Shown here: piece by piece, positions 4,321 to 62,509 of the stretch
How positions within the stretch are numbered: the first letter of the stretch is position 1
Layout: each line of letters opens with the position of its first letter
Assembly (NCBI RefSeq): GCF_004210375.1
Contig: NC_134837.1
Location: 154,669,310-154,733,309, forward strand
Origin: Tachypleus tridentatus
Taxonomy: Eukaryota; Arthropoda; Merostomata; Xiphosura; Limulidae
DNA: 64,000 nt
Direction: 5' to 3'
Program-made: the position numbers and the translations under genes
The notes under the pieces: model-generated
What the model was told of the DNA's origin: nothing
What the model saw: only the letters and a program-made list of their open reading frames with translations
Database searches by the model: none

Positions 4321-4850
4321 CCCAATGTTCTGTAATTAATAAACTTTTCAATATGCACATTTTTTCATTCCCAATATGCTGAACTATTAAACTTTCTAAT
4401 GTACAATGTTCCTCACTCTCTATGTCGTGTAATAATTAAACTTTTCCTATCTCAAAATGTCTTGTAATAATGAGCTTTTCAATATACATTGTTAATCACT
4501 CTCAATGTCTTGTAATTAAGAAACTTTTAAAAATTCACTTCTTCTCATTATCAATATCTTGTAATTAATAAGCTTTTAATATATACACAGTTAGTCACTT
4601 TAAGTGTCCTAAAATGAATAAAGCTATCAGTATGCACTGTTACTCACTCGCAAACTTCTCTAATTAATAAACTTTTCAACACACACTGTTCCACACTATC
4701 AGTATACTTTAACTAAGAAACTCTTATATATACACCGTTCGTCGCTCTCAAACTCTTGTAATTGATAAACTTCTCAATACACACTGTCACACACTCAGAA
4801 TCCTTTAACTAATAAATTTTTCAAAATATTCTGTTAGTCACTCCCAATGT

Positions 4851-5878
4851 TGTCTTACTAATAAAGTTTTCAATATACACTCTTCCTCAATCCCAAGGTC
4901 CAAAATTAGCAAATTCTCCAGTGTACACTTTTCCTCGCTCTCAATGTCATTATATTAAGAAATATTTCAATATACACTTTTCCTAATTCCCAATCTTACG
5001 TGATTAATAAAGTTACAAAAAAACACAGTTCTTCATTCCCAATGTCCTATAATTAAAAACTTTACAATATACACTGTTTCTCTCGCTAAAGGTTCTGTAA
5101 ATAATAAACATTCAATACACACTGTTCCTCGGTCAAAATGTCCTGTAATATATATGCTTATCAGAATATACTATTAATCACTCTCAATGTCTTCTACCTA
5201 AAATCTTTTCAGTATACATTATTCCTCACTTTCCCACTCCTGTAATTTATCAACTTTCGAATATACACTCATCCTCCCTTCTCAACATCCTTTAAAAAAT
5301 AAACATCTCAATATATACGGTTTCTCATACTAAATGCCCTGTACTAAATATACTTTTCCTCATACATTGTTCCTAACGCTTAATATTCTGAAACTAATAA
5401 ACTTTTGAATATACACTGTTCCTGTCTCTTCATGCCGTGTTATTATTAAAGTTTTCAAGATACACTTTTCCTATTTAAATATGTCTTGTAATTAATGAGC
5501 TTTTCAAAATACATTGTTAATAACTCTCAAAGTATTGTAATTTAGAAAATTTTAAAAATTCACTACTCCCCATTATCAACGTCTTGTAATTAATAAGCTT
5601 TTAATATATACACAGTAAGTCACTTTAAGTGTCCTAAAATAAATAAATCTTTCAGTATACACTATTCCTGACACTTAAACTCCTGTAATTAATAAACTCA
5701 TCAATATACACCGTTCCTCACTCTCAAACTCTTGTAATTGATAAACTTCCCAATACACAATGTTCCACACTCTCAGCATCCTTTAACTAATAAACTCTGC
5801 AATATATACCATTGCTCACTCTCAATATCCTGTAATTAATGAAACTTTTCAATATACACTGATAGTCACACCCAATGT
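4851..5878 (+). repeat. Reference 21-monomer higher-order repeat unit (1,028 bp)
   Basis: A complete HOR copy. The starts of successive monomers can be told apart: TGTCTTACT, CCAAAATTAG, CATTATATTAAG, CTTACGTGATTA, CCTATAATTA, TCTGTAAATAATA, CCTGTAATATATA, CTTCTACCTA, CCTGTAATTTATC, CCTTTAAAAAAT, CCTGTACTAAA, TCTGAAACTA, CGTGTTATTA, CTTGTAATTAATGAG, ATTGTAATTTAG, CTTGTAATTAATAAG, TCCTAAAATA, CCTGTAATTAATAAACTC, CTTGTAATTGATA, CCTTTAACTA, CCTGTAATTAATGA. The same order recurs through the array, so these landmarks can be used to index all other copies. Confidence 0.85.
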
Positions 5879-8800
5879 TGTCTTACTAATAAAGTTATTT
5901 AAAATTAAAAAATTAATTAATTAAAAAACCTTTGAATACACTGTTCAACACTCTCAGTATCGTTTAACTAATAAACTCTTCAATATACACCGTTCCTCAC
6001 TATCAACGTCCTGTAATTAACGAAACTTTTCAATATATACTGTTAGTCACTCCCAATGTTCTCTTAGAAATGAAGTTTTCAATATACACTCTTCCTCAAT
6101 CCCAATGTCCAATAATTAGCAACCTTCCAATATACACTTTTCCTCGCTCTCAATATCATTATATTAAGAAATATTTCAATATACACTGTTCCTAATTCCC
6201 ATTCTAGCATAATTAATAAAGTTACAAAAAATCACAGTTCTTCATTACCAATGACCTATAATTAATAAACTTTTAATATATACACAGTTAGTCACATTAA
6301 GTGTCCTAAAACAAATAAATCTTTCAGTATACACTATTCCTAACTCTTAAACCTTTCAATACACACTGTTCAACACTCTCAGTATCCTTTAACTAATAAA
6401 CTCATCAATATACACCGTTCCTCACTCTCAAACTCTTGTAATTAATAAACTTCCCAATACACAATGTTCCACACTCTCAGCATCCTTTAACTAATAAACT
6501 CTTCAATATATACCATTGCTCACTCTCAATGTCCTGTAATTAAAGAAACTTTTCAATATATACTTTTAGTCACTCCCAATGTTGCCTTACTAATAAAGTT
6601 TACAATATACACTCTTCCTCAAACCCAAAGTCCAATAATTAACAAACCTTCCAGTGTACACCTTTCCTGGCTCTCAATCTCATTATATTAAGAAATATTT
6701 CAATATACACTGTTCCTAATTACCATTCTTACGTGATTAACAAAGTTACAAAAACACACAGTTCTTCATTGCCAATGTCCTACAATTAATACTTTCAATA
6801 CACACTGTTTCCCAGTCAAAATGTCCTGCAACGTATAAGCTTATCAAAATATACTATTAATCACTCTCAATGTCTTATAACTCAAAAACTTTTCAGTATA
6901 CATTATTCCTCACTCTATTACTCCTGTAATTTATAAACATTCCAGTATACACTCATCCTCCCTTCTCAAAGTCCTTTGAAAATAAACATCTCAATATATA
7001 CAGTTCCTCACACTAAATGCCCTGTACTAAATATACTTTTCCTCATACATTGTTCCTAACTCTTAATGTTCTGAAACTAATAAACTTTTCAATATACACT
7101 GTCCCTGTCACTTCATGTCGAGCAATTATTAAAGTTTTCAACATACACTTTTCCTATTTAAAAATGTCTTGAAATTAATGAGCTTTTCAATATACATTGT
7201 TAATAACTCTCAAAGTACTGTAATTTAAAAAATTTTAAAAATTCACTACTCTCCATTATCAATGTCTTGTAATTAATAAGATTTTAATATATACACAGTT
7301 AGTCACTTCAAGTGTCCTAAAAAAAATAAATCTTTCACTATACACTATTCCTCACTTTTAAACTCCTGTAATTAATAAGCCTTTGAATACACACTGTTCA
7401 ACACTCTCAGTATCCTTTAACTAATAAACTTTTCAATATACACCGTTCCTCACTATCAACGTCCTGTAATTAAAGAAACTTTTCAATATACACTGATAGT
7501 CACCCCCAATGTTGTCTTACTAATAAAGTTTTCAATATCCACTCTTTCTCAATTCCAAAGTCAAATAATTAACAAACATTCCACTGAACACCTTTCCTCG
7601 CTCTCAATCTCATTATATTAAGAAATATTTCAATATACACTATTCCTTATTCCCATTCTAGCATAATTAATAAAGTTACAAAAAAACACAGTTCTTCATT
7701 CCCAATATCCTATAATTAATACTTTTCAATATACACTGTTCTTGTCTCTTCATGTAGTGTAATTATTAAAGTTTTCAAGATACACTTTTCCTATCTCAAA
7801 ATGTCTTGTAATTAATGAGCTTTTTAATATACACTGTCAATCACTCTCAAAGTATTATAATTTAAAAAATTTTAAAATTTCACTACTTCCCAATATCAAT
7901 GTCTTGAAATTAATAAGCATTTAATATATACACAGTTAGTCACTTTAAGTGTTCTAAAAAAAATAAATCTTTCAGTATACACCATTCCTCACTCTTATAC
8001 TCCTGTAATTAATAAACCTTTGAATACACACTGTTCAACACTCTCAGTATCCTTTAACTAATAAACTCTTCAATATACACCGTTCCTCACTATCAACGTC
8101 CTATAATTAACGAAACTTTTCAATATATACTGTTAGTCACTCCCAATGTTGTATTACAAATGAAGTTTTCAATATACACTCTTCCTCAATCCCAATGTCC
8201 AATAATTAGCAACCTTCCAATATACACTTTTCCTCGCTCTCAATATCATTATATTAAGAAATATTTCAATATACACTGTTCCTAATTCCCATTCTAGCAT
8301 AATTAATAAAGTTACAAAAAATTACAGTTCTTCATTCCAAATGACCTATAATTAATAAACTTTCAATACACACTGTTCCCCAGTCAAAATCTCCTGCAAC
8401 ATATTAGCTTATCAAAATACACTATTACTCACTCTCAATGTCTTATAACTCAAAAACTTTTCAGGTATACATTATTCCTCACTCTCCTACTCCTGTAATT
8501 TATAAACATTACAGTATACACTCATCCTCCCTTCTCAACGTCCTTTAAATAATAAATATCTCAATACATACTGTTCCTCATACTAAATGCTCTGTACTAA
8601 ATATACTTTTCCTCATACATTGTTCATAAGCTAAATGTTCTGAAACTAATAAACTTTTCAATATACACTGTTCCTGTCTCTTCATGTCGTGTTATTATTA
8701 AAGTTTTCAAGATACACTTTTTCTATCTCACAATGTCTTGTAATTAATGAAATTTTTAACATACATTTTTAATCACTCTCAAAGTATTGTAATTTAGAAA

Positions 8801-9911
8801 ATTTCAAAAATTCACTACTCCCCATTATCAATGTCTTGTAATTAATAAGCTTTTAATATATACACATTTAGTCACATTAAGTGTCCTAAAACAAATAAAT
8901 CTTTCAGTATACACTATTCCTAACTCTTAAACTCCTGTAATTCATAAACCTTTCAATACACACTGTTCAACACTCTCACTATCCTTTAACTAATAAACTC
9001 TTCAATATACACCGTTGCTCACTATCAATTTCCTGTAATTAAAGAAACTTTTCAATATATACTCTTAGTCACTCCCAACGTTATCTTACTAATAAAGTTT
9101 TCAATATACACTCTTCCTCAATCCCAATATCCAACAATTAGCAACCTTTCAATGTACACTTTTCCTCCCTCTCAATGTCATTATATTAAAAAATATTTCA
9201 ATATACACTGTTCCTAATTACCAATCTTATGTGATTAACAAAGTTACAAAAACACACAGTTCTTCATTGCCAATGTCCTATAATTAATAAACTTTTCAAT
9301 ACAAACTGTTTTCTCTCTGAAAGTTCTGTTATCGAAACTTTCAAAACACACTATTCCTCATTCAAAATGACCTGTAACATATAAGCTTATCAAAATATAC
9401 TATTAATCACTCTCAATGTCTTCTACCTAAAATCTTTTCAGTCTACATTATTCCTCACTCTACTACTTCTGTAATTTATCAACTTTCGAATATACACTCA
9501 TCCTCCCTTCCCAACATCCTTTAAAAAATAAACATCTCAAAATATACTGTTCCTCATACTAAATGTCCTATACTAAAGATACTTTTCCTCATACATTGTT
9601 CCTAACTCTTAATGTTCTGAAAGTAATAAACTTTTCAACATACACTTTTCCTATTTAAAAATGTCTTGAAATTAATGAGCTTTTCAATATACATTGTTAA
9701 TAACTCTCAAAGTACTGTAATTTAGAAAATTTTAAAAATTCACTACTCTCCATTATCAATGTCTTGTAATTAATAAGATTTTAGTATATACACAGTTAGT
9801 CACTTCAAGTGTCCTAAAAAAAATAAATCTTTCAGTATACACTATTCCTAACTCTTAAACTCCTGTAATTCATAAACCTTTCAATACACACAGTTCAACA
9901 CTCTCAGTATC

Positions 9912-10109
9912 CTTTAACTAATAAACTCATCAATATACACCGTTCCTCACTCTCAAGCTCTTGTAATTGATAAACTTCCCAATACACAATGTTCCACACT
10001 CTCAAAATCCTTTAACTAATAAACTCATCAATATACACCGTTCCTCACTCTCAAACTCTTGTAATTGATAAACTTACCAATACACAATGTTCCACACTCT
10101 CAGCATCCT
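9912..10109 (+). repeat. Local two-monomer duplication
   Basis: Two adjacent monomers (CCTTTAACTAATAAACTCAT... and CTTGTAATTGATAAACTT...) occur twice in a row, offset by 98 bp (TTGTAATTGA at 9961 and again at 10059), that is exactly two monomers. The copies differ at a few bases, so the event is recent but not the newest in the array. Confidence 0.75.
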
Positions 10110-10446
10110 TTAACTAATAAACTCTTCAATATATACCATTGCTCACTCTCAATGTCCTGTAATTAAAGAAATTTTCAATATATACTGTTAGTCACTCCCA
10201 ATGTTGCCTTACTAATAAAGTTTACAATATACACTCTTCCTCAAACCCAATGTCCAATAATTAGCAACCTTCCAGTGTACACTTTTCCTCGCTCTCAACG
10301 TTATTATATTAAAAAATATTTCAATATACACTGCTCCTAATTATCAATCTTACATGATTAACAAAGTTACAAAAACACACAGTTCTTCATTGCCAATGTC
10401 ATATAATTAATAAACGTTTCAATACACACTGTTTCTCTCTCTAAAG

Positions 10447-13400
10447 GTTCTGTAAACAATAAACTTTCAAAACACACTATTCCTCATTCAAAATGACCTG
10501 TAATATAAGCTTATCAGAATATACTATTAATCACTCTCAATGTCTTCTACCTAAACTCTTTTCAGTATACATTATTCCTCACTCTCCAACTCCTGTAAGT
10601 TATCAACTTTCGAATATACACTCATCCTCCCTTCTCAACGTCCTTTAAAAAATAAACATCTCAATATATACGGTTCCTCATACTAAATGCACTGTACTAA
10701 ATATACTTTTCCTCATACATTGTTCCTAACTCTTAATGTTCTTAAACTATTAAACTTTTCAATATACACTGTAAGTCACTCTCAATGTCTTATAATAAAG
10801 AAACTTTTGAAATTCACTACTCCCCATTATCAATGTCTTGTAATTAATAAGATTTTAATATATACACAGTTAGTCACATTAAGTGTCCTAAAACAAATAA
10901 ATCTTTCAGTATACACTATTCCTCACTCTTAAACTCCTGTAATTAAAAAACCTTTGAATAAACTTTTCAACACTGTCAGTATCCTTTAACTAATAAACTT
11001 TTCAATATACACCGTTCCTCACTATCAACGTCCTGTAATTAAAGAAACTTTTCAATATACACTGATAGTCACCCGCAATGTTGTCTCACTAATAAAGTTT
11101 TCAATATCCACTCTTTCTCAATTCCAAAGTCCAATAATTAACAAACATTCCACTGTACACCTTTCCTCGCTCTCAATCTCATGAAATTAAGAAATATTTC
11201 AATATACACTGTTCCTTATTCCAATTCTAGCGTAATTAATAAAGTTACAAAAAAACACAATTCTTCATTCCCAATATCCTATAATTAATACTTTTCAATA
11301 TACACTGTTCTTGTTTCTTCATGTTGTGTAATTATTAAAGTTTTCAAGATACACTTTTCCTATCTCAAAATGTCTTGTAATTAATGAGCTTTTTAATATA
11401 CACTGTCAATCACTCTCAAAGTATTATAATTTAAAAAATTTTAAAAATTCACTACTCCCCATTATCAATGTCTTGTAATTAATAAGCATTTAATATATAC
11501 ACAGTTAGTCACTTTAAGTGTTCTAAAAAAAATAAATCTTTCAGTATACACCATTCCTCACTCTTATACTCCTGTAATTAATAATCCTTTGAATACACAC
11601 TGTTCAACACTCTCAGTATCCTTTAACAAAGTTACAAAACACACAGTTCTTCATTGCCAATGTCCAATAATTAATATACGTTTCAATACACACTGTTTCT
11701 CTCTCTAAAGGTTCTGTAAACAATAAACTTTCAAACACACTATTCCTCATTCAAAATGACCTGTAATTAATAAACCTTGGAATACACACTGTTCAACACT
11801 CTCAGTATCCTTTAACTAATAAACTCTTCAATATACACCGTTCCTCACTATCAATTTCCTGTAATTAAAGAAACTTTTCAATATATACTCTTAGTCACTC
11901 CCAATGTTATCTTACTAATAAAGTTTTCAATATACACTCTTCCTCAATCCCAATATCCAACAATTAGCAACCTTTCAATGTACACTTTTCCTCGCTCTCA
12001 ATGTCATTATATTAAAAAATATTTCAATATACACTGTTCCTAATTACCAATCTTATGTGATTAACAAAGTTACAAAACACACAGTTCTTCATTGCCAATG
12101 TCCTATAATTAATAAACTTTTCAATACAAACTGTTTTTTCTCTGAAAGTTCTGTTATCGAAAACTTTCAAAACACACTATTCCTCATTCAAAATGACCTG
12201 TAACATATAAGCTTATCAAAATATACTATTAATCACTCTCAATGTCTTCTACCTAAAATCTTTTCAGCCTACATTATTCCTCACTATAGTACTTCTGTAA
12301 TTTATCAACTTTTCAATATATACACTTCTCCTCCCTTCTCAGCATCCTTTAAAAAAATAAACATCTCAAAATATACTGTTCCTCATACTAAATGTCCTAT
12401 ACTAAATATACTTTTCCTCATACATTATTCCTCACTCTATTACTCCTGTAATTTATAAACATTCCAGTATACACTCATCCTCCCTTCACAAAGTCCTTTG
12501 AAAATAAACATCTCAATATCTACGGTTCCTCACACTAAATGCCCTGTACTAATTATACTTTTCCTCATACATTGTTCCCAACTCTTAATGTTCTGAAACA
12601 AATAAACTTTTCAATATACACTGCTCCTAATTATCAATCATTACATGATTAACAAAGTTTTCAAAATACACATAGTTCTTCATTGCCAATGTCATATAAT
12701 TAATAAACGTTTCAATACACACTGTTTCTCTCTCTAAAGGTTCTATAATTAATAAACTTTCAAAACACACTATTCCTCATTCAAAATGACCTGTAATATA
12801 AGCTTATCAGAATATACTATTAATCACTCTCAATGTCTTCTACCTAAACTCTTTTCAGTATACATTATTCCTCACTCTCCAACTCCTGTAATTTATCAAC
12901 TTTCAATATACACTCATCCTCCCTTCTCAACGTCCTTTAAAAATAAACATCTCAATATATACTGTTCCTCATACTAAATGCACTGTACTAAATATACTTT
13001 TCCTCATACATTGTTCCTAACTCTTAATGTTCTTAAACTAATAAACTTTTCAATATACACTGTAAGTCACTCTATTTCAATGTCTTATAATAAAGAAACT
13101 TTTGTAAATTTAGAAAATTTTAAAATTCACTACTCCCCATTATCAATGTCTTGTAATTAATAAGATTTTAATATATACACAGTTAGTCACATTAAGTGTC
13201 CTAAAACAAATAAATCTTTCAGTATACACTATTCCTCACTCTTAAACTCCTGTAATTAAAAAACCTTTGAATAAACTTTTCAACACTGTCAGTATCCTTT
13301 AACTAATAAACTTTTCAATATACAATAAACGCTTTCAATACACACTGTTTCTCCTCACTATCAACGTCCTGTAATTAAAGAAACTTTTCAATATACACTG

Positions 13401-16400
13401 ATAGTCACCCGCAATGTTGTCTCACTAATAAAGTTTTCAATATCCACTCTTTCTCAATTCCAAAGTCCAATAATTAACAAACATTCCACTGTACACCTTT
13501 CCTCAAAGCTCTCAATCTCATGAAATTAAGAAATATTTCAATATACACTGTTCCTTATTCCAATTCTAGCAAATAATTAATAAAGTTACAAAAAAAACAC
13601 AATTCTTCATTCCCAATATCCTATAATTAATACTTTTCAATATACACTGTTCTTGTTTCTTCATGTTGTGTAATTATTAAAGTTTTCAAGATACACTTTT
13701 CCTATCTCAAAATGTCTTGTAATTAATGAGCTTTTTAATATACACTGTCAATCACTCTCAAAGTATTATAATTTAAAAAATTTTAAAAATTCACTACTCC
13801 CCATTATCAATGTCTTGTAATTAATAAGCATTTAATATATACACAGTTAGTCACTTTAAGTGTTCTAAAAAAATAAATCTTTCAGTATACACTATTCCTC
13901 ACTCTTATACTCCTGTAATTAATAAACCTTTGAATACACACTGTTCAACACTCTCAGTATCCTTTAACAAAGTTACAAAAAACACACAGTTCTTCATTGC
14001 CAATGTCCAATAATTAATATACGTTTCAATACACACTGTTTCTCTCTCTAAAGGTTCTGTAAACAATAAACTTTCAAACACACTATTCCTCATTCAAAAT
14101 GACCTGTAATTAATAAACCTTGGAATACACACTGTTCAACACTCTCAGTATCCTTTAACTAATAAACTCTTCAATATACACCGTTCCTCACTATCAATTT
14201 CCTGTAATTAAAGAAACTTTTCAATATATACTCTTAGTCACTCCCAATGTTATCTTACTAATAAAGTTTTCAATATACACTCTTCCTCAATCCCAATATC
14301 CAATAATTAGCAACCTTTCAATGTACACTTTTCCTCACTCTCAATGTCATTATATTAAAAAATATTTCAATATACACTGCTCCTAATTATCAATCTTACA
14401 TGATTAACAAAGTTACAAAAACACATAGTTCTTCATTGCCAATGTCATATAATTAATAAACGTTTCAATACACACTGTTTCTCTCTCTAAAGGTTCTGTA
14501 AACAATAAACTTTCAAAACACACTATTCCTCATTCAAAATGACCTGTAATATAAGCTTATCAAAATATACTATTAATCACTCTCAATGTCTTCTACCTAA
14601 ACTCTTTTCAGTATACATTATTCCTCACTCTCCAACTCCTGTAATTTATCAACTTTCAGAATATACACTCATCCTCCTTCTCAACGTCCTTTAAAAAAAA
14701 TAAACATCTCAATATATACTGTTCCTCATACTAAATGCACTGTACTAAATATACTTTTCCTCATACATTGTTCCTAACTCTTAATGTTCTTAAACTATTA
14801 AACTTTTCAATATACACTGTAAGTCACTCTCAATGTCTTATAATAAAACTTTTGAAATTCACTACTCCTCATTATGAATGTCTTGTAATTAATAAGCTTT
14901 TAATATATACACAGTAAGTCACTTTAAGTGTCCTAAAATAAATAAATCTTTCAGTATACACTATTCCTCACTCTTAAACTCCTTTAACTAATAAACTTTT
15001 CAATATACACCGTTCCTCACTATCAACGTCCTGTAATTAAAGAAACTTTTCAATATACACTGATAGTCACCCGCAATGTTGTCTCACTAATAAAGTTTTC
15101 AATATCCACTCTTTCTCAATTCCAAAGTCCAATAATTAACAAACATTCCACTGTACACCTTTCCTCGCTCTCAATCTCATTATATTAAGAAATATTTCAA
15201 TATACACTGTTCCTTATTCCAATTCTAGTGTAATTAATAAAGTTACAAAAAAACACAATTCTTCATTCCCAATATCCTATAATTAATACTTTTCAATATA
15301 CACTGTTCTTGTCTCTTCATGTTGTGTAATTATTAAAGTTTTCAAGATACACTTTTCCTATCTCAAAATGTCTTGTAATTAATGAGCTTTTTAATATACA
15401 TTGTCAATCACTCTCAAAGTATTATAATTTAGAAAATTTTAAAATTCACTACTCCCCATTATCAATGTCTTGTAATTAATAAGCATTTAATATATACACA
15501 GTTAGTCACTTTAAGTGTCCTAAAAAAATAAATCTTTCAGTATACACCATTCCTCACTCTTATACTCCTGTAATTCATAAACCTTTCAATACACACTGTT
15601 CAACACTCTCAGTATCCTTTAATAAAGTTACAAAATACACAGTTCTTCATTGCCAATGTCCAATAATTAATATACGTTTCAATACACACTGTTTCTCACT
15701 CTCAAGGTTCTTTAAACAATAAACTTTCAAACACACTATTCCTCACTCTCAAACTGACTTGTAATTAATAAACCTTGGAATACACAATGTTCAACACTCT
15801 CAGCATCCTTTAACTAATAAACTCTTCAATATACACCGTTCCTCACTATCAATTTCCTGTAATTAAAGAAACTTTTCAATATATACTCTTAGTCACTCCC
15901 AATGTTATCTTACTAATAAAGTTTTCAATATACACTCTTCCTCAATCCCAATATCCAACAATTAGCAACCTTTCAATGTACACTTTTCCTCGCTCTCAAT
16001 GTCATTATATTAAAAAATATTTCAATATACACTCTTCCTAATTATCAATCTTACATGATTAACAAAGTTACAAAACACACAGTTCTTCATTGCCAATGTC
16101 CTATAATTAATAAACGTTTCAATACACACTGTTTCTCTCTCTAAAGGTTCTGTAAACAATAAACTTTCAAAACACACTATTCCTCATTCAAAATGACCTG
16201 TAATATAAGCTTATCAGAATATACTATTAATCACTCTCAATGTCTTCTACCTAAACTCTTTTCAGTATACATTATTCCTCACTCTCCAACTCCTGTAAGT
16301 TATCAACTTTCGAATATACACTCATCCTCCCTTCTCAAAAAAAATAAACATCTCAATATATACGGTTCCTCATACTAAATGCACTGTACTAAATAAACTT

Positions 16401-22439: not shown

Positions 22440-22939
22440 NNNNNNNNNNNNNNNNNNNNNNNNNNNNNNNNNNNNNNNNNNNNNNNNNNNNNNNNNNNNN
22501 NNNNNNNNNNNNNNNNNNNNNNNNNNNNNNNNNNNNNNNNNNNNNNNNNNNNNNNNNNNNNNNNNNNNNNNNNNNNNNNNNNNNNNNNNNNNNNNNNNNN
22601 NNNNNNNNNNNNNNNNNNNNNNNNNNNNNNNNNNNNNNNNNNNNNNNNNNNNNNNNNNNNNNNNNNNNNNNNNNNNNNNNNNNNNNNNNNNNNNNNNNNN
22701 NNNNNNNNNNNNNNNNNNNNNNNNNNNNNNNNNNNNNNNNNNNNNNNNNNNNNNNNNNNNNNNNNNNNNNNNNNNNNNNNNNNNNNNNNNNNNNNNNNNN
22801 NNNNNNNNNNNNNNNNNNNNNNNNNNNNNNNNNNNNNNNNNNNNNNNNNNNNNNNNNNNNNNNNNNNNNNNNNNNNNNNNNNNNNNNNNNNNNNNNNNNN
22901 NNNNNNNNNNNNNNNNNNNNNNNNNNNNNNNNNNNNNNN
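22440..22939. other. Assembly gap of exactly 500 N
   Basis: All N. A round 500 is the usual placeholder for a gap of unknown length in scaffolding, so true missing sequence may be much longer. Sequence on both sides is array DNA in the same orientation. The left side breaks inside the monomer CCTGTAATATAAGC and the right side resumes in AAGTGTCCTAAAAC. Confidence 0.98.
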
Positions 22940-27500: not shown

Positions 27501-28495
27501 TCATTCAAAATGACCTGTAATTAATAAACCTTTGAATACACACTGTTCAACACTCTCAGTATCATTTAACTAATAAACTCTTCAATATACACCGTTCCTC
27601 ACTATCAACGTCCTGTAATTAACGAAACTTTTCAATATATACTGTTAGTCACTCCCAATGTTGTCTTACTAATAAAGTTTTCAATATACACTCTTCCTCA
27701 ATCCAAAGTCCAATAATTAACAAACCTTCCAGTGTACACCTTTCCTTGCTCTCAATCTCATTATATTAAGAAATATTTCAATATACACTGTTCCTAATTC
27801 CCATTCTAGCATAATTAATAAAGTTACAAAAAAACACAGTTCTTCATTCCCAATGACCTATAATTAATAAACTTTCAATACACACTGTTCCCCAGTCAAA
27901 ATGTCCTGCAACATATTAGCTTATCAAAATATACTATTAATCACTCTCAATGTCTTATAACACAAAAACTTTTCAAGTATACATTATTCCTCACTCTCCT
28001 ACTCCTGTAATTTATAAACATTTCAGTATACACTCATCCTCCCTTCTCAACTTCCTTTAAATAATAAATATCTCAATATATATTGTTCCTCATACTAAAT
28101 GCTCTGTACTAAAATTTACTTTTCCTCATACATTGTTTCTAAAGCTAAATGTTCTGAAACTAATAAACTTTTCAATATACACTGTTCCTGTCTCTTCATG
28201 TCATGTTATTATTAAAGTTTTCAAGATACACTTTTCCTATCTCACAATGTCTTGTAATTAATGAGCTTTTTAACATACATTTTTAATCTCTCTCAAAGTA
28301 TTGTAATTTAGAAAATTTTAAAAATTCACTACTCCCCATTATCAATGTCTTGTAATTAATAAGCTTTTAATATATACACAGTTAGTCACATTAAGTGTCC
28401 TAAAACAAATAAATCTTTCAGTATACACTATTCCTCACTCTTAAACTCCTGTAATTAATAAACCTTTGAATACACACTGTTCAACACTCTCAGTA

Positions 28496-48235: not shown

Positions 48236-48335
48236 CACTATCAACGTCCTGTAATTAAAGAAACTTTTCAATATACAATGTTCCTCACTATCAACGTCCT
48301 GTAATTAAAGAAACTTTTCAATATACACTGATAGT
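48236..48335 (+). repeat. Single-monomer tandem duplication
   Basis: One monomer (CTATCAACGTCCTGTAATTA...AATATACA) is present twice in succession, offset by about 50 bp, before the array continues with TGATAGTCACCCCC. In other HOR copies this monomer occurs once. Confidence 0.7.
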
Positions 48336-50545
48336 CACCCCCAATGTTGTCTTACTAATAAAGTTTTCAATATCCACTCTTTCTCAATTCCAAAGTCCAA
48401 TAATTAACAAACATTCCACTGTACACCTTTCCTCGCTCTCAATCTCATTATATTAAGAAATATTTCAATATACACTGTTCCTTATTTCCATTCTAGCGTA
48501 ATTAAAAAAGTTACAAAGAAACACAGTTCTTCATTCCCAATATCCTATAATTAATACTTTTCAATATACACTGTTCCTGTCTCTTCATGTCGTGTTATTA
48601 TTAAAGTTTTCAAGATACACTTTTGCTATCTCACAATGTCTGGTAATTAATGAGCTTTTTAACATACATTTTTAATCACTCTCAAAGTATTGTAATTTAG
48701 AAAATTTTAAAAATTCACTACTCCCCATTATCAATGTCTTGTAATTAATAAGCTTTTAATATATACACAGTTAGTCACATTAAGTGTCCTAAAACAAATA
48801 AATCTTTCAGTATACACTATTCCTCACATTAAAACTCCAGTAATTAATAAGCCTTTGAATACACACTGTTCAACACTCTCAAAATATCCTTTAACTAATA
48901 AACTTTTCAATATACACTATTCCTCACTATCAACATCCTGTAATTAAAGAAACTTTTCAATATACACTGATAGTCACTCCAATGTTGTCCTACTAATAAA
49001 GTTTTCAAACATTTCTCAGTATAATTACTCATCCTCACCTTCAATGTCCTTTAAATTAATAAATATTTCAATATATACTGTTCCTCATTCTAAATGCTCT
49101 GTACTAAATATAGTTACAAAAACACATTGTTCTTCATTCTAAATATTCTAAAATTAATAAACTTTTCAATATACACTGTTCCTGTCTCTTCATGTCGGTG
49201 TTATTATTAAAGTTTTCAAGATACACTTTTCCTATCTCACAATGTCTGGTAATTAATGAGCTTTTTAACATACATTTTTAATCACTCTCAAAGTATTGTA
49301 ATTTAGAAAATTTTAAAATTCACTACTCCCCATTATCAATGTCTTGTAATTAATAAGCTTTTAATATATACACAGTTAGTCACATTAAGTGTCCTAAAAC
49401 AAATAAATATTTCAGTATACACTATACACTATTCTGTAACTCTTTCAAACACACTCCTGTAATTAATAAACCTTTCAATACACACTGTTCAACACTCTCA
49501 GTATCCTTTAACTAATAAACTTTTCAATATACACTGTTCCTCACTATCAACGTCCTGTAATTAAAGAAACTTTTCAATATACACTGATAGTCACCCCCAA
49601 TGTTGTCTTACTAATAAAGTTTTCAATATCCACTCTTTCTCAATTCCAAAGTCCAATAATTAACAAACATTCCACTGTACACCTTTCCTCGCTCTCAATC
49701 TCATTATATTAAGAAATATTTCAATATACACTGTTCCTTATTCCCATTCTAGCGTAATTAATAAAGTTACAAAAAAACACAGTTCTTCATTCCCAATATC
49801 CTATAATTAATACTTTTCAATATACACTGTTCTTGTCTCTTCATGTTGTGTAATTATTAAAGTTTTCAAGATACACTTCTTCAATATACACTGTTCCTGT
49901 CTCTTCATATCGTGTTATTATTAAAGTTTTCAAGATACACTTTTCCTATCTCACAATGTCTGGTAATTAATGAGCTTTTTAACATACATTTTTAATCACT
50001 CTCAAAGTATTGTAATTTAGAAAATTTTAAAAATTCACTACTCCCCATTATCAATGTCTTGTAATTAATAAGCTTTTAATATATACACAGTTAGTCACAT
50101 TTAGTCTCCTAAAACAAATAAATCTTTCAGTGTACACTATTCCTAACTCTTAAACTCCTGTAATTAATAAACCTTTCAATACACACTGTTCAACACTCTC
50201 AGTATCCTTTAACTAATAAACTCATCAATATACACCGTTCCTCACTCTCAAACTCTTGTAATTGATAAACTTCCCAATACACAATGTTCCACACTCTCAG
50301 CATCCTTTAACTAATAAACTCTTCAATATATACCATTGATCAATCTCAATGTCCTGTAATCCTTTGAATACACTGTTCAACACTCTCAGTATTGCTCTTA
50401 CTTAACAAATATACAAAACCCACACAGTTCTTCATTGCCAATGTCCTATAATTAATAAGCGTTCCTCAATCTTATGATTAACACTTCTTCATTCCAATGT
50501 CATATAATTAATAAACTCTCTGTTTCTAAAGGTCTGTTCAACACT

Positions 50546-53500
50546 CTCAGTATCCTTTAACTAATAAACTCTTCAATATACACCGTTCCTCACTATCAAC
50601 GTCCTGTAATTAACGAAACTTTTCAATATATACTGTTAGTCACTCCCAATGTTGTCTTACAAATGAAGTTTTCAATATACACTCTTCCTCAATCCCAAAG
50701 TCCAATAATTAGCAACCATCCAATATACACTTTTCCTCGCTCTCAATATCATTATATTAAGAAATATTTCAATATACACTGTTCCTAATTCCCATTCTAG
50801 CATAATTAATAAAGTTACAAAAAATCACAGTTCTTCATTCTCAATGACCTATAATTAATAAACTTTCAATACACACTGTTCCCCAGTCAAAATCTCCTGC
50901 AACATATTAGCTTATCAAAATATACTATTAATCACTCTCAATGTCTTATAACTCAAAAACTTTTCAGGTATACATTATTCCTCACTCTCCTACTCCTGTA
51001 ATTTATAAACATTACAGTATACACTCATCCTCCCTTCTCAACGTCCTTTAAATAATAAATATCTCAATACATACTGTTTCTCATACTAAATGCTCTGTAC
51101 TAAATATACTTTTCCTCATACATTGTTCCTAAAGCTAAATGTTCTGAAACTAATAAACTTTTCAATATACACTATTCCTGTCTCTTCATGTCGTGTTATT
51201 ATTAAAGTTTTCAAGATACACTTTTTCTATCTCACAATGTCTTGTAATTAATGAGATTTTAAACATACATTTTTAATCACATACATTTTTTTATTTTAAT
51301 TTAAAAAATTTTAAAAATTCACTACTCCCCATTATCAATGTCTTGTAATTAATAAGCTTTTAATATATACACAGTCACATTAAGTTTCCTAAAACAAATA
51401 AATCTTTCAGTATACACTAATCCTAATTCTTAAACTCCTGTAATTCATAAACCTTTCAATACACACTGTTCAATACTCTCAGTATCCTTTAACTAATAAA
51501 CTCATCAATATACACCGTTCCTCACTCTCAAACTCTTGTAATTGATAAACTTCCCAATACACAATGTTCCACACTCTCAGCATCCTTTAACTAATAAACT
51601 CTTCAATATATACCATTGATCAATCTCAATGTCCTGTAATCCTTTGAATACACTGTTCAACACTCTCAGTATCGTTTAACTAATAAACTCTTCCTCACTC
51701 TTAAACTCCTGTAATTCATAAACCTTTCAATACACACAGTTCAACACTCTCAGTATCCTTTAACAAAGTTACAAAAACACACAGTTCTTCATTGCCAATG
51801 TCCTATAATTAATAAACGTTTCAATACACACTGTTTCTCTCTCTAAAGGTTCTGTAAACAATAAACTTTCAAACACACTATTCCTCATTCAAAATGACCT
51901 GTAATTAATAAACCTTTGAATACACACTGTTCAACACTCTCAGTATCCTTTAACTAATAAACTCTTCAATATACACCGTTCCTCACTATCAATTTCCTGT
52001 AATTAAAGAAACTTTTCAATATATACTCTTAGTCACTCCCAATGTTATCTTACTAATAAAGTTTTCAATATACACTCTTTCTCAATCCCAATATCCAACA
52101 ATTAGCAACCTTTCAATGTACACTTTTCCTCGCTCTCAATGTCATTATATTAAAAAATATTTCAATATACACTGTTCCTAATTACCAATCTTACGTGATT
52201 AACAAAGTTACAAAAACACACAGTTCTTCATTACCAATGTCCTATAATTAATAAACTTTTCAATACAAACTGTTTTTCTCTCTGAAAGTTCTGTTATCGA
52301 GAAACTTTCAAAACACACCATTTCTCATTCAAAATGACCTGTAACATATAAGCTTATCAAAATATACTATTAATCACTCTCAATGTCTTCTACCTAAACT
52401 CTTTTCAGTATACATTATTCCTCACTCTCCAACTCCTGTAAGTTATCAACTTTCGAATACACACTCATCCTCCCTTCTCAACGTCCTTTGAAAATAAACA
52501 TCTCAATATATACAGTCACTTCAAATGTCCAAAAATAAATAAATCTTTCACTATACACTATTCCTCACTTTTAAACTCCTGTAATTAAAAAACCTTTGAA
52601 TACACTGTTCAACACTCTCAGTATCCTTTAACTAATAAACTTTTCAATATTCACTGTTCCTGTCTCTTCATGTCGTGTTATTATTAAAGGTTTCAAGATA
52701 CACATTTCCTATCTCACAATGTCTGGTAATTAATGAGCTTTTTAACATACATTTTAATCACTCTCAAAGTATTGTAATTTAGAAAATTTTAAAATTCACT
52801 ACTCTCCATTATCAATGTCTTGTAATTAATAAGATTTTAGTATATACACAGTTAGTCACTTCAAGTGTCCTAAAAAAATAAATCTTTCAGTAAACACAAT
52901 TCCTCACTTTTAAACTCCTGTAATTAAAAAAACCTTTGAATACACTGTTCAACACTCTCAGTATCCTTTAACTAATAAACTTTTCAATATACACTGTTCC
53001 TGTCTCTTCATGTCGTTTATTATTAAAGGTTTCAAGATAGACTTTTCCTATCTCACAATGTCTGGTAATTAATGAGCTTTTTAACATACATTTTTAATCA
53101 CTCTTAAAGTATTGTAATTTAGAAAATTTTAAAAATTCACTACTCTCCATTATCAATGTCTTGTAATTAATAAGATTTTAGTATATACACAGTTAGTCAC
53201 ATTAAGTGTCCTAAAAAAAAAAATCTTTCACTATACACTATTCCTCACTTTTAAACTCCTGTAATTAATAAGCCTTTGAATACACAGTGTTCAACACTCT
53301 CAGTATCCTTTAACTAATAAACTTTTAAATATACACCATTCCTCACTATCAACGTCCTGTAATTAAAGAAACATTTCAATATACACTGACAGTCACCCCC
53401 AATGTTGTCTTACTAATAAAGTTTTCAATATCCACTCTTTCTCAATTCCAAAGTCCAATAATTAACAAACATTCCACTGTACACCTTTCCTCGCTGTCAA

Positions 53501-56500
53501 TCTCATTATATTAAGAAATATTTCAATATACATTGTTCCTTATTCCCATTCTAGCGTAATTAACAAAGTTACAAAAAACACAGTTCTTCATTCCCAATAT
53601 CCTATAATTAATACTTTTCAATATACACTGTTCTGTCTCTTCATGTCGTGTTATTATTAAAGTTTTCAAGATAAACTTTTCCTATCTCACAATGTCTGGT
53701 AATTAATGAGCGTTTTAACATACATTTTTAATCACTCTCAAAGTATTGTAATTTAGAAAATTTTAAAAATTCACTACTCCCCATTATAAATGTCTTGTAA
53801 TTAATAAGCTTTTAATATATACACAGTTAGTCACATTAAGTGTCCTAAAACAAATAAATCTTTCAGTGTACACTATTCCTAGCTCTTAAACTCCCGTAAT
53901 TAATAAACCTTTCAATACACACTGTTCAACACTCTCAGTATCCTTTAACTAATAAACTCATCAATATCCACCGTTCCTCACTCTCAAACTCTTGTAATTG
54001 ATAAACTTCCCAATACACAATGTTCCACACTCTCAGCATCCTTTAACTAATAAACTCTTCAATATATACCATTGCTCACTCTCAATGTCCTGTAATTAAA
54101 GAAATTTTCAATATATACTGTTAGTCACTCCCAATGTTGCCATACTAATAAAGTTTACAATATACACTCTTCCTCAAACCCAATGTCCAATAATTAGCAA
54201 CCTTCCAGTGTACACTTTTCCTCGCTCTCAACGTCATTATATTAAAAAATATTTCAATATACACTGTTCCTAATTATCAATCTTACATGATTAACAAAGT
54301 TACAAAACACACAGTTCTTCATTCCAATGTCATATAATTAATAAACGTTTCAATACACACTGTTTCTCTCTCTAAAGGTTCTGTAAACAATAAACTTTCA
54401 AACACACTATTCCTCATTCAAAATAACCTGTAATTAATAAACCTTTGAATACACACTGTTCAACACTCTCAGTATCCTTTAACTAATAAACTCTTCAATA
54501 TACACCGTTCCTCACTATCAATTTCCTGTAATTAAAGAAACTTTTCAATATATACTCTTAGTCACTCCCAATGTTATCTTACTAATAAAGTTTTCAATAT
54601 ACACTCTTTCTCAATCCCAATATCCAACAATTAGCAACCTTTCAATGTACACTTTTCCTCGCTCTCAATGTCATTATATTAAAAAATATTTCAATATACA
54701 CTGTTCCTAATTACCAATCTTACGTGATTAACAAAGTTACAAAAACACACAGTTCTTCATTACCAATGTCCTATAATTAATAAACGTTTCAATAAACACT
54801 GTTTCTCTCTCTAAAGGTTCTGTAAACAATAAACTTTCAAAACACACTATTCCTCATTCAAAATGACCTGTAATATAAGCTTATCAGAATATACTATTAA
54901 TCACTCTCAATGTCTTCTACCTAAACTCTTTTCAGTATACATTATTCCTCACTCTCCCACTCCTGTAAGTTATCAACTTTCGAATATACGCTGATCCTCC
55001 CTTCTCAACGTCCTTTAAAAAATAAACATATCAATATATACGGTTCCTCGTACTAAATGCACTGTACTAAATATATTTTTCCTCATACATTGATCCTAAC
55101 TCTTAATGTTCTTAAACTATTAAACTTTTCAATATACACTGTAAGTCACTCTCAATGTCTTATAATAAAGAATCTTTTGAAATTCACTACTCCTCATTAT
55201 GAATGTCTTGTAATTAATAAGCTTTTAATATATACACAGTAAGTCACTTTAAGTGTCCTAAAATAAATCAATCTTTCAGTATACACTATTCCTCACTCTT
55301 CAACTCCTGTAATTAATAAACCCTTCAATACACACTGTTCAACACTCTCCATATCCTTTAAGTAAAAAAAGTTTTCAATATACACTCTTCCTCAATCCAA
55401 AGTCCAATAATTAACAAACCTTCCAGTGTACACCTTTCCTGGCTCTCAATCTCATTATATTAAGAAATATTTCAATATACACTGTTCCTAATTACCATTC
55501 TTACGTGATTAACAAAGTTACAAAAACACACAGTTCTTCATTGCCAATGTCCTACAATTAAAACTTTCAATACACACAGTTTCCCAGTCAAAATGTCCTG
55601 CAACGTATAAGCTTATCAAAATATACTATTAATCACTCTCAAAGTCTTATAACTCAAAAACTTTTCAGTATACATTATTCCTCACTCTATTACTCCTGTA
55701 ATTTATAAACATTCCAGTATACACTCATCCTCCCTTCTCAAAGTCCTTTGAAAATAAACATCTCAATATATACGGTTCCTCACACTAAATGCCCTGTACT
55801 AAATATACTTTTCCTCATACATTGTTCCTAACTCTTAATGTTCTGAAACTAATAAACTTTTCAATATACACTGTCCCTGTCACTTAATGTCGAGCAATTT
55901 TTAAAGTTTTCAACATACACTTTTCCTATTTAAAAATGTCTTGAAATTAATGAGCTTTTCAATATACATTGTTAATAACTCTCAAAGTACTGTAATTTAG
56001 AAAATTTTAAAAATTCACTACTCTCCATTATCAATTTCTTGTAATTAATAAGATTTTAGCATATACACAGTTAGTCACTTCAAATGTCCTAAAAAAAATA
56101 AATCTTTCAGTATACACTATTACTCACTCTTAAACTCCTGTAATTAAAAAACCTTTGAATACACTGTTCAACACTCTCAGTATCCTTTAACTAATAAACT
56201 TTTCAATATACACTGTTCCTGTCTCTTCATGTCGTGTTATTATTAAAGGTTTCAAGATACACTTTTCCTATCTCACAATGTCTGGTAATTAATGGGCTTT
56301 TTAACATACATTTTTAATCACTCTCAAAGTATTGTAATTTAGAAAATTTTAAAAATTCACTAATCTCCATTATCAATGTCTTGTAATTAATAAGATTTTA
56401 GTATATACACAGTTAGTCACATTAAGTGTCCTAAAACAAATAAATCTTTCAGTGTACACTATTCCTAACTCTTAAACTCCTGTAATTAATAAACCTTTCA

Positions 56501-58677
56501 ATACACACTGTTCAACACTCTCAGTATCCTTTAACTAATAAACTCATCAATATACACCGTTCCTCACTCTCAAACTCTTGTAATTGATAAACTTCCCAAT
56601 ACACAATGTTCCACACTCTCAGCATCCTTTAACAAATAAACTCTTCAATATATACCATTGCTCACTCTCAATGTCCTGTAATTAAAGAAATTTTCAATAT
56701 ATACTGTTAGTCACTCCCAATGTTGCCTTACTAATGAAGTTTACAATATACACTCTTCCTCAAACCCAATGTCCAATAATTAGCAACCTTCCAGTGTACA
56801 CTTTTCCTCGCTCTCAACGTCATTATATTAAAAAATATTTCAATATACACTGTTCCTAATTATCAATCTTACATGATTAACAAAGTTACAAAAACACACA
56901 GTTCTTCATTGCCAATGTCCTATAATTAATAAACGTTTCAATACACACTGTTTCTCTCTCTAAAAGTTCTGTAAACAATAAACTTTCAAACACACTATTC
57001 CTCATTCAAAATGACCTGTAATTAATAAACCTTTGAATACACTGTTCAACACTCTCAGTATCCTTTAACTAATAAACTCTTCAATATACACCGTTCCTCA
57101 CTATCAATTTCCTGTAATTAAAGAAACTTTTCAATAAAACTGTTTTTCTCTCTGAAAGTTCTGTTCTCGAGAATCTTTCAAAACACACCATTTCTCATTC
57201 AAAATGACCTGTAACATATAAGCTTATCAAAATATACTATTAATCACTGTCAATGTCTTCTACCTAAAATATTTTCAGTATACATTATTCCTCACACTCC
57301 CACTCCTGTAATTTATAAACATTCCAGTATACACTCATCCTCCCTTCTCAACGTCCTTTAAAAAATAAACATCTCAATATATACGGATCATCATACTAAA
57401 TGCCCAATACTAAATATACCTTTTCCTCATACATTGTTCCTAACGCTTAATGTTCTGATACTAATAAACTTTTCAATATACACTGTTCCTGTCTTTTCAT
57501 GCCGTGTAATTATTAAAGTTTTCAAGATACACTTTTCCTATCTTAAAATGTCTTGTAATTAATGAGCTTTTTAATATACATTGTTAATCACTCTCAAAGT
57601 ATTATAATTTAAAAAATTTTAAAAATTCACTACTCCCCAATATCAATGTCTTGAAATTAATAAGCTTTTAATATATACACAGTTAGTCACTTGAAGTGTT
57701 CTAAAAAAAATAAATCTTTCAGTATACACTATTCCTCACTCTTATACTCCTGTAATTAATAAACCTTTGAATACACACTGTTCAACACTCTCAGTATCCT
57801 TTAACTAATAAACTCATCAATATACACCTTTCCTCACTCTCAAACTCTTGTAATTGATAAACTTCCCAATACACAATGTTCCACACTCTCAGCATCCTTT
57901 AACTAATAAACTCTTCAATATATTCCATTGCTCACTCTCAATGTCCTGTAATTAAAGAAACTTTTCAATATATACTGTTAGTCACTCCCAATGTTATCTT
58001 ACTAATAAAGTTTACAATATACACTCTTCCTCAATTCCAATGTCCAATAATTAGCAACCTTCCAATGTACACTTTTCCTCGCTCTCAATGTCATTATATT
58101 AAGAAATATTTCAATATACACTGTTACTAATTACCGTTCTTACGTGATTAACAAAGTTACAAAAACACACAGTTCTTCATTGCCAATGTCCTATAATTAA
58201 TAAACTTTCAATACACCCTGTTCCCCACTCAAAATGTCCTGCAACGTATAAGCTTATCAAAATATACTATTAATCACTCTCAATGTCTTATAACTCAAAA
58301 ACTTTTCAGTATACATTACTTCTCACTCTCGCACTTCTGTAATTTATCAGCTTTCGAATATACACTCATCCTCCCTTCTCAACGTCCTTTAAAAAATAAA
58401 CATCTCAAAATATACTGTTCCTCATGCTATATGTCCTGTACTAAAGATACTTTTCCACATACATTGTTCCGAACTCTTAAAGTTCTTAAACTAATAAACT
58501 TTTCAATACGCACAGTTCGTCATTCCTAGTGTACTATTATTAGTGAACTTTTCAATATACACCAATGTCCTGTAATTAATAAACTTTTCAATATTTATTA
58601 ATATCTTGTAATTAATGAACTTTTGAGTATACATTGTTTCTCATCCCCCAATGTCCTGTAATTAATAAACGTTTCAT
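50546..58677 (+). repeat. Right edge of array: diverged HOR copies ending in a regular 1.03-kb unit
   Basis: Monomers are more diverged than in the interior and share variants with the left edge, for example GTCTTACAAATGAAGTTTTC at about 50656 and 8149, CCTGGCTCTCAATCTC at about 55438 and 6667, and TTTACAATATACACTCTTCC at about 54153 and 10217. The last full HOR, from TGTTCTGATACTAATAAAC at 57451 to the equivalent AGTTCTTAAACTAATAAAC at 58481, is 1,030 bp and about 21 monomers. The final four monomers are degenerate and the array ends at about 58677 after AATAAACGTTTCATTC. Confidence 0.8.
52575..53256 (+). repeat. Local seven-monomer (~340-bp) tandem duplication
   Basis: A block with the diagnostic ATTAAAGGTTTCAAGATA (GGTTTC where most copies have GTTTTC) occurs twice, offset by about 340 bp (GTCGTGTTA at 52672 and GTCGTTTAT at 53012). 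A third related copy with GGTTTC is at about 56245. This gives a short sub-HOR specific to the right side. Confidence 0.65.
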
Positions 58678-58833
58678 TCTGAGAAAAGAAAGAATGTCCC
58701 ACATTGAACAGCAGCTGGTTTGTCTATCCCCAGTAGTGCAGAGGTAGGAGTAGGTATAATGTTCTCCCAGTAAAACTAAACTGGAACCCCAACCTTTTCC
58801 TCCAAATGGTATATTATCCTATTAACATACGAA

Positions 58834-59103: not shown

Positions 59104-59140
59104 TTAACATATGAAATATAACTTTTATACCAGTACATTG

Positions 59141-59410: not shown

Positions 59411-59420
59411 CAGTACGTTG

Positions 59421-62352: not shown

Positions 62353-62363
62353 CACCCTCTGTA

Positions 62364-62498: not shown

Positions 62499-62509
62499 CA
62501 CCCTCTATA

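Follow-up and report, generated by a model that had tools for sequence, protein, structure and literature searches.

A 49-bp satellite with ordered monomer types and higher-order repeats in a predicted intron of the horseshoe crab Tachypleus tridentatus

Human alpha satellite comprises ordered, diverged monomer types assembled into near-identical multimers, together with array-specific forms, disordered relatives, and hybrids at the joins between variants. The origin of such higher-order organization in satellites has been investigated mainly at centromeres, which no longer retain the founding site. Higher-order repeats are found in many taxa among the plant and animal satellites regarded as centromere candidates (PMC4053949). 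Among human tandem arrays, a further report describes dispersal within segmental duplications, with some arrays inside introns, as well as an 18-kb VNTR array of a 61-bp repeat at Xp22.33 whose irregular higher-order repeats measure 1.6 and 2.5 kb (PMC2588610).

Within a window of 64,000 nucleotides (the whole stretch of DNA analysed), we characterized a 49-bp satellite array on the plus strand (window positions 4320-58676), comprising 1,105 N-free monomer segments of 20 ordered types arranged in higher-order repeats. Comparing descriptions rather than sequences, the array resembles human alpha satellite in its ordered diverged types, multimer forms, disordered relatives, and hybrid joins; it differs in having a monomer of 49 bp instead of ~171 bp, a predicted intronic position, a presence on few chromosomes, and no sign of a centromere. 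The Xp22.33 VNTR of PMC2588610 shares the short monomer and irregular higher-order repeats, whereas the horseshoe-crab array is larger and has 20 ordered types in an order common to several related arrays. The human segmental-duplication arrays of that report likewise spread with flanking DNA and then underwent private rearrangements in each copy, but the dispersed human family consists of ~3.5-kb LTR-element units, whereas the present satellite has a 49-bp monomer and belongs to a gene family of which many copies are array-free. Also, unlike the candidate centromere repeats of PMC4053949, the horseshoe-crab family makes up only ~0.02% of the assembly by our own estimate. As originally predicted, it is unnamed in the titles and abstracts of the horseshoe-crab satellite literature searched, which included few subscription papers. 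The horseshoe-crab source that was guessed at the outset agrees with 19 Coagulin-family matches in this genome, compared with 0 of 14 control genomes.

A wrap-around search with a 49-bp profile traced the array as a single plus-strand path, with zero matches on the minus strand, in either window flank, or in shuffled flank. Self-identity at a lag of 49 was 0.494 compared with 0.301 expected, the maximum over 20,000 lags in one shuffled copy being 0.309. The array contains an assembly gap of 500 Ns (22440-22939, no strand); its ~54 kb length and its continuity across the gap are therefore statements of the assembly. Of the original prediction of a single-orientation 49-bp satellite spanning ~54 kb, the orientation and monomer were retained, while the length overlooked this gap. 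The accompanying claim that no transposon interrupts the array holds for the sequenced part, where insertion runs along the alignment path reach at most 9 bp, and does not extend across the Ns. Among 30-mers, 60% of those in the left piece recur in the right piece and 52% conversely, and exact repeats within the array reach 811 bp. Strand asymmetry is strong (G 6.6%, C 22.7%). An RNA fold of three monomers gave no structure, and the lack of any Rfam family at threshold within the window ruled out a known RNA family as its identity. A coding repeat was also rejected, given that neither 49 nor 98 is divisible by 3 and that the longest gap-free stop-to-stop frame in the array is 124 aa.

Neighbouring monomers are diverged and distant counterparts nearly identical, in a fixed order, as is general for higher-order repeats. 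Adjacent monomers share an identity of 0.644 (all pairs, 0.656), while the mean identity of a monomer to its best other copy is 0.976, with 64% having an exact match; independent monomers simulated from the same column frequencies reached 0.834, with 0% exact. The 20 types, each represented by 31-95 copies, follow the cyclic order PNMFGEABHIKJCLDTRQOS in 859 of 1,017 steps, with a top-successor fraction of 0.844 versus at most 0.132 in 100 shuffles. One cycle corresponds to a higher-order repeat of ~0.98 kb, replacing earlier figures of ~21 types and ~1.03 kb. The cycle is nearly always present as shortened or duplicated variants: all 20 types occur in unbroken order in only one stretch, of 26 monomers, and the window array is a patchwork of variants with no dominant multimer length. 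Periods above 49 bp, on which the original prediction had staked itself, were found, with 2,289/2,290, 3,442, and 7,934 bp among the commonest distances separating shared 30-mers. The superunits of 2.3-7.9 kb proposed from such spacings are local rather than array-wide, because mean identity never exceeds 0.70 at monomer lags up to 399. The array ends are less homogeneous than the core, exact copies being scarcest at the left edge (4320-6800, plus strand), where 21% of the monomers in the bin have one. In its ordered types, higher-order repeat, local superunits, and less homogeneous ends, the array thus has the alpha-satellite-like organization first proposed for it.

The window array is predicted to lie within an intron of a many-copy gene, between an ephrin-receptor-like exon and a stretch resembling a membrane exon; this assignment rests on array-free gene copies, with splicing predicted. 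The upstream exon includes an Ephrin_rec_like match (PF07699; 3640-3807, plus strand) ~0.5 kb upstream of the array, and beyond the window on the same side is an Ig-like exon (C13:154667007-154667264). With a 49-bp unit, the array would fall among intronic VNTRs or minisatellites (units of 10-100 bp). Pairing 100 of 148 left and 100 of 109 right intron sites, we obtained 73 gene copies with both sites, of which 71 have a spacing of 270-776 bp, compared to 78,989 bp in the window. An array-free copy on contig C5 follows the window as far as base 4324 and picks up again 24.6 kb beyond the array (L026:9246), identifying an extra block of ~24.6 kb (beginning at 58677-64000, plus strand) that separates the array from the remaining intron. 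In the window copy, the aligned membrane exon contains a stop, whereas the C2 and C5 copies are open in this frame; the window copy of the gene may therefore be decaying. Plus-strand frames of the locus pieces L023 and L025-L028 gave no Pfam match at E 0.01, and no cytoplasmic domain.

The possibility of a lone locus was ruled out by related arrays on contigs C1, C2, C6, C13, C19, and C74, the only 6 of 205 contigs with exact matches to one probe. The window array is one of about nine, distributed over six contigs (five large, one small) and labelled by contig as window, C13-a, C13-b, C19, C6-a, C6-b, C1, C2, and C74; those with both ends located measure ~9-62 kb. Canonical steps predominate in C13-a (189/209), C13-b (180/199), C2 (508/583), C74 (174/190), C19 (87/96), C6-a (73/81), and C1 (103/124), counts that cover a complete array only for C1. 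By contrast, the C6-b array is short and unordered, without the 20-type order. Type order is common to arrays whose flanks are 5-14% diverged; the 20-type order predates this divergence of the locus copies, and repeat lengths now differ between arrays. One run in C6-a is regular, with 20 of 22 marker intervals measuring 1,166-1,171 bp, and arrays with ~99% identical flanks are offset from one another by kilobase shifts.

Six arrays (window, C13-a, C13-b, C19, C6-a, and C1) have unique DNA in common right at the array edge, on one side per array except for the window and C6-a, where both sides are shared. To the left, the window flank is matched by C13-a (99.3-99.6% over ~9 kb), C19 (98.8% over 1.4 kb, including identity across the 648 bp adjoining the array), and C6-a (88% over 2.0 kb); to the right, by C13-b (99.2% over 5.3 kb), C1 (86-95% in pieces), and C6-a (93% over 1.0 kb). 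Similarity continues into the arrays, the first 859 bp of the window array matching the C13-a left edge at 99.2%, and its right edge (57468-58676, plus strand) matching that of C13-b at 99.3% over 1,209 bp. The left boundary site, GGATTATCAAAACGTTAGCA (4291-4320, plus strand), marks the end of intron sequence common to array-free gene copies and occurs exactly at four places, every one an array edge; the window, C13-a, C19, and C6-a arrays share it to the base. Similarly, the right boundary site, CATTCTGAGAAAAGAAAGAATGTCCCACATTG (58675-58706, plus strand), occurs at four places when up to 3 mismatches are allowed, each of them the edge of a family array, and is the same in the window, C13-b, C1, and C6-a. 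Array orientation relative to the common flank is constant among the copies checked. The boundaries held in common indicate that the six arrays, located at different sites with common unique flanks as in segmental-duplication dispersal, descend from one founding event and spread with host DNA, and the kilobases of shared flank rule out dispersal of the satellite independently of its surroundings. In a tree built from left-flank sequence of at most 650 bp, four array-bearing copies split from four array-free copies (98% ultrafast bootstrap); a 215-bp comparison instead places the C6-a flank nearest an array-free C12 copy, contrary to the longer tree. For C6-b, the gene sequence in common begins a few hundred bp past its 3' edge. 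Neither the C1 left flank nor the 1.2 kb 5' of C6-b matched the window left flank among the 70 longest of 891 matches. Beyond the N gap, the left side of C2 did not match the window locus, and the right side of C13-a gave only short matches of dispersed-repeat length. For C2, the flank comparison took in the left side, and C74 was represented by its array sequence.

From these observations, the family is probably a non-centromeric satellite which grew within one intron of a copy of an Ig / ephrin-receptor-like / membrane-protein gene, was copied with its host locus, and was reshaped by in-register unequal exchange. Such exchange, or an equivalent replication slip keeping the 49-bp register, would create hybrid monomers at joins, delete or double blocks of types, and copy kilobase blocks; array ends would take less part, and no cellular function would be required. 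Among 13 distinct contexts of odd monomers, the fusion predicted from the neighbours ranked first or second of 380 parent pairs in 7, including one between L and A for which a single type does as well as the fusion. The remaining 6 depart from this prediction (ranks 8 to 360), among them class V, between B and C, a shortened type A. The earlier description of the locus as actively homogenised agrees with its long exact repeats and with the kilobase shifts; an excess of within- over between-array identity is clear only for C1 (same-type identity 0.844 inside, at most 0.832 to other arrays), and is not seen for C6-a (0.845 inside, 0.832-0.849 to other arrays) or the window (0.888 inside, 0.896 to C19).

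Some of the near-identical array copies may represent the other allele. In its wider form, an assembly effect would make the window, C13-a, C13-b, C19, and perhaps C2 and C74 copies alleles or misplaced pieces of one locus, with the window array joining two unrelated pieces at its 500-N gap; we regard this as a serious possibility, if short of probable. It is consistent with flanks 98.8-99.6% identical, with the 648 bp common to the window and C19, and with 500-N gaps that interrupt or adjoin the window, C2, C13-a, and C19 arrays. Further, the left piece of the window array has 0.74 of its 30-mers in common with C13-a and 0.65 with C19, while the right piece has 0.70 in common with C2. However, the array itself and the diverged C6-a, C1, and C6-b arrays would be untouched by such an effect, and longer left-flank identities of 99.6, 98.8, and 98.8% among the window, C13-a, and C19 hint at three versions, which exceed one diploid locus and so argue against an allelic reading unless consensus errors explain them.

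Arrival as, or within, a mobile element, with spread by transposition, appears unlikely. The ~24.6-kb block, absent from array-free copies and at least partly common to the C1, C6-a, and C13-b arrays, could be read in this way, as could the presence in C1 of an array and part of the block without the left flank. Conversely, the copies share kilobases of gene flank, beyond any element, as well as identical boundaries, and Pfam identified zero transposase or integrase domains in the plus-strand frames of L025, L026, and the window flanks. The empty site contains a TGTTCTG motif that appears again at the left edge of the window array and the 3' edge of C6-b, and could reflect a short duplication or a seed; element ends were not noticed in these comparisons.

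A centromeric or pericentromeric satellite, as the horseshoe-crab counterpart of alpha satellite, would account for the higher-order organization, the array-specific repeat lengths, and the co-occurrence of ordered and unordered forms, and the C2 (0.49 of contig) and C13 (0.51-0.56) arrays do lie near the middle. We nevertheless consider it very improbable: rather than at all or nearly all chromosomes, exact probe matches occur on the 6 contigs only (centromeres may be unassembled), the C6 (0.70), C1 (0.79), and C19 (0.99) arrays are off-centre, arrays with both ends located span ~9-62 kb, and the window array adjoins gene exons and dispersed repeats. Centromeres in Limulus are also reportedly transposable-element based, according to the title of a 2025 paper. 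Finally, a selected function in the host gene, such as a strand-biased RNA source or length-dependent regulator, is hardly credible, since the strand asymmetry and constant orientation that might recommend it are each expected from common descent, an array would not fit in 71 of the 73 paired gene copies, the membrane exon of the window copy carries a stop, and the window lacks an Rfam family at threshold.

Returning to growth within a host intron, a less certain proposal derives the first monomer from the intron itself, namely from the 49 bp beside the boundary. This seed gave p 0.001-0.009 in fixed register and 0.11 with any register allowed, and is not the best-scoring stretch of the intron. 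A tentative and rather doubtful extension holds that these 49 bp, single in most gene copies, are the progenitor, such that the genome keeps a series from array-free intron through the short unordered C6-b to ordered arrays with varied multimers. The family is a satellite of a known kind that is unusually well placed to show the origin of such order: dozens of array-free gene copies preserve the founding intron, the boundaries are defined to the base, and one genome holds an unordered relative and several ordered arrays. Order formation, the ageing of edges, and array-specific multimer growth are thereby testable without centromere function. Also identified, to the right of the array, was a candidate first exon of another gene (63621-63731, plus strand), with an ATG, a start hydrophobic by eye, and a following GT; the C1 copy matches it at 89% identity over 37 aa.

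A single plus-strand path of a wrap-around 49-bp profile, built from the consensus TAATTAATAAACTTTTCAATATACACTGTTCCTCACTCTCAATGTCCTG, spans window positions 4320-58676 with no insertion run longer than 9 bp. Neither the minus strand, nor the two flanks of the window, nor shuffled flank sequence gave any match to the profile. This recovers the single-orientation 49-bp array of the original prediction, within which an assembly gap of exactly 500 Ns (22440-22939) had gone unmentioned. N-free segments comprise 1,105 of the 1,116 in the array, whose plus strand is 22.7% C and 6.6% G. A weak extra autocorrelation signal at lags of 14-17 and 33-35 (0.33-0.36 vs 0.30) hints that the monomer may be an old triplication of ~16 bp.

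Column identity was 0.644 between adjacent monomers and 0.656 over all pairs. The best other copy of a monomer was on average 0.976 identical and was exact for 64% of monomers, compared with 0.834 and no exact copies in a control array of independent monomers simulated with the same column frequencies. Average-linkage clustering at 0.2 yielded 20 types of 31-95 copies each, plus small classes, ordered in the cycle P N M F G E A B H I K J C L D T R Q O S (859 of 1,017 steps canonical; top-successor fraction 0.844 vs at most 0.132 in 100 shuffles). An unbroken pass through all 20 types occurs in only one stretch, of 26 monomers, the remainder comprising variants in which certain jumps recur (25 of D to A, 17 each of B to A and C to P, 13 of A to C and 11 of C to D). 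The 1.03-kb repeat of 21 types originally proposed was thus nearly right as an order but, given the single full cycle, wrong as a regular period; the accompanying spacings of 2.29, 3.44 and 7.93 kb are real as local repeats. The longest exact repeat measures 811 bp, with copies at 27625 and 31420.

The neighbours of an odd monomer lying between two ordinary ones predict the two types that would be fused in it. For 37 odd monomers with both neighbours canonical and two different predicted parents, the predicted fusion was ranked among 380 parent pairs. It ranked first in 8/8 copies of class W (between O and Q; S/R fusion) and 3/3 of class X (between S and C; P/J), while for class U (between S and F; P/M) it ranked second in 8/9 copies and 29th in one. 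Copies within one class cannot be counted as independent, so the results are best judged over the 13 distinct type-and-context classes: the predicted fusion was first or second by median in seven, one of which (between L and A) is fitted equally well by a single type, and ranked lower in six (median ranks 8, 12, 14, 38, 73 and 360, where the class at 360 is a shortened A and no fusion). A pattern of this kind is expected of exchange that keeps the 49-bp register.

The array ends are less homogeneous than the interior: exact copies account for 21% of monomers over the first 2.5 kb and 32% over the final bin, against 47-96% between. End positions are kept in near-identical arrays: the first 861 bp of array C13-a and the last 1,209 bp of C13-b are 99.2% and 99.3% identical to the window, respectively. 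The first 2.0 kb of the C19 array reaches only 86.7%, and close to the left ends of the C13-a and window arrays their longest common blocks are displaced by 3.5 kb relative to each other.

The window occupies C13:154669310-154733309, and its genome has 19 matches to the Pfam Coagulin family, which is not known outside horseshoe crabs and had no match in 14 control genomes. Across the 2.167-Gb assembly (205 contigs), a 26-base probe allowing up to three mismatches gave 1,510 forward and 266 reverse matches, the reversed probe serving as control giving 0 and 1. With 264 matches in the window, we estimate by scaling a genome total of roughly 0.36 Mb. Exact matches all fall on contigs C1, C2, C6, C13, C19 and C74; contigs of inexact matches are known only among the ~100 matches listed, and contigs with inexact matches alone are possible. 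Beyond the window, arrays were located at C1:147580411-147589255, from C2:76044089 to beyond 76081000, C6:118900969 to about 118963383 (C6-a, plus a related stretch near 118.831-118.838 Mb), C6:120365358-120375040 (C6-b, reverse), C13:140817139-140838745 (C13-a, ending near an N gap), C13:142714597 to beyond 142756000 (C13-b, reverse), from C19:69048026 to beyond 69090000, and on C74 (10 kb read of 35.6 kb); these extents rest on located points, with intervening stretches read in part. Marker positions in C6:118831150-118838403 recur in 118901000-118909000 at an offset of ~71.6 kb, which suggests a duplicated or allelic piece of C6-a.

The type order is common to the window and seven of these arrays, with canonical steps of 189/209 in C13-a, 180/199 in C13-b, 508/583 in C2, 174/190 in C74, 87/96 in C19, 73/81 in C6-a and 103/124 in C1, counts that cover the complete array only for C1 and 5.2 kb of about 62 for C6-a. 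The C6-b array is unordered (1/21; mean identity to nearest type 0.73). Same-type identity was 0.888 inside the window and 0.896 to C19, 0.845 inside C6-a and 0.832-0.849 to other arrays, and 0.844 inside C1 and at most 0.832 to others; private homogenisation is therefore clear in C1 only. Repeat lengths nevertheless differ between arrays, 20 of 22 marker intervals in one C6-a run being 1,166-1,171 bp, while those of C13-b alternate among about 1,366-1,418, 1,601-1,612 and 1,850-1,880 bp, with one of 2,160.

Unique DNA beside the arrays is common to several copies, which points to one locus in many copies. Left flanks match the window at 99.3-99.6% over about 9 kb for C13-a, 98.8% for C19 and 88% for C6-a, and right flanks at 99.2% for C13-b, 86-95% in pieces for C1 and 93% for C6-a. 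Beyond the 3' edge of C6-b and a dispersed repeat lies gene sequence as at L026:9249 to L027:2818 (stretches outside the window; 90-93%). Exact matches to the left boundary motif number four in the genome, all at array edges, with 20 others at 2-3 mismatches; the right motif has four within three mismatches, likewise all at array edges. Counting against a single locus, among the longest 70 of 891 matches no long match to it came from the left side of C1, from the 1.2 kb 5' of C6-b or from the sequence across the N gaps at C2 and C13-a.

The array lies 0.5 kb downstream of a predicted Ephrin_rec_like exon (window 3640-3807; E 2.9e-7), itself 5.7 kb downstream of an Ig-like exon (L024:7698-7955). 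Both exon families have at least 150 matches at E 0.001 or better (150 scored of 430 and of 290 candidates, respectively). The host gene family, with its Ig, Ephrin_rec_like and membrane exons, exists in a great many copies spread across numerous contigs, which raises the question of whether it expanded recently or was carried by something mobile. On C5, an array-free copy aligns with the window as far as base 4324; the match picks up again at L026:9246, which lies 24.6 kb past the right end of the array and precedes a putative membrane-spanning exon recognised by eye. The left intron site has 148 genome matches within two mismatches and the right 109 within three. Pairing 100 listed left with 100 listed right sites, 73 left sites were paired among those listed: the two sites lie 270-776 bp apart in 71 pairs, 78,989 bp apart in the window and 169,309 bp apart in one pair that probably joins two different gene copies. 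Three of the 27 left sites unpaired among those listed are array edges. The host intron is strikingly constant, with 712-776 bp between sites in 68/73 pairs among the sites listed.

The array-free state looks ancestral, since the short junction of the C2 copy is shared by a diverged array-free copy at C5:18.85 Mb (75-85% identity). In an unrooted left-flank tree (up to 650 bp, eight sequences), four array-bearing copies fall on one side with 98% support; an earlier 215-bp comparison placed C6-a nearest an array-free C12 copy. The array-free copy at C12:33488.9 kb (L050/L053) lacks all sequence between the boundary and the position corresponding to L027:3919; a monomer-like TCTCAATGTC marks the break, and this copy may have lost an array. 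The aligned membrane exon of the window copy carries a stop in a frame that is open to the apparent exon end in the C2 and C5 copies, and the window gene copy may therefore be decaying.

In the C2 array-free copy, the 49 bp that run up to the boundary can be aligned with the monomer in array-start register (32 identical of 52 columns), with p 0.001 against 3,000 random flank windows (0.009 for the diverged C5 copy). Against composition shuffles, p was 0.0018 in that register and 0.11 with all registers considered; when any register is allowed, these 49 bp are outscored by other stretches of the intron. A progenitor monomer in the intron's own 49 bp beside the boundary is thus suggestive only.

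In human DNA, PMC2588610 describes short-unit arrays with irregular higher-order repeats, intronic arrays, and arrays that spread as part of segmental duplications and underwent private rearrangements; the window array is therefore a case of a known phenomenon, in a family whose set of intermediate states is unusually complete. Horseshoe-crab genomes have undergone three rounds of duplication, according to portions of PMC7815833 and PMC7210998, one of which puts repeat content at roughly one third; neither main text contains the word "satellite".

Between the array and the gene remainder lies a ~24.6-kb block (window 58677 to L026:9245; C13:154727986-154752554), absent from array-free copies, which contains a candidate first exon and is common, at least in part, to the C1, C6-a and C13-b copies, with none seen at C6-b. 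Just right of the array, window 58820-59410 holds two ~280-bp dispersed repeat copies in opposite orientation, with many further copies in the array flanks examined; by eye, this repeat looks like a tRNA-derived SINE. Window 163-521, which came to light when C13-a matched the window in inverted orientation, is ~82% identical to its own reverse complement over 364 bp, a foldback resembling that of a DNA transposon.
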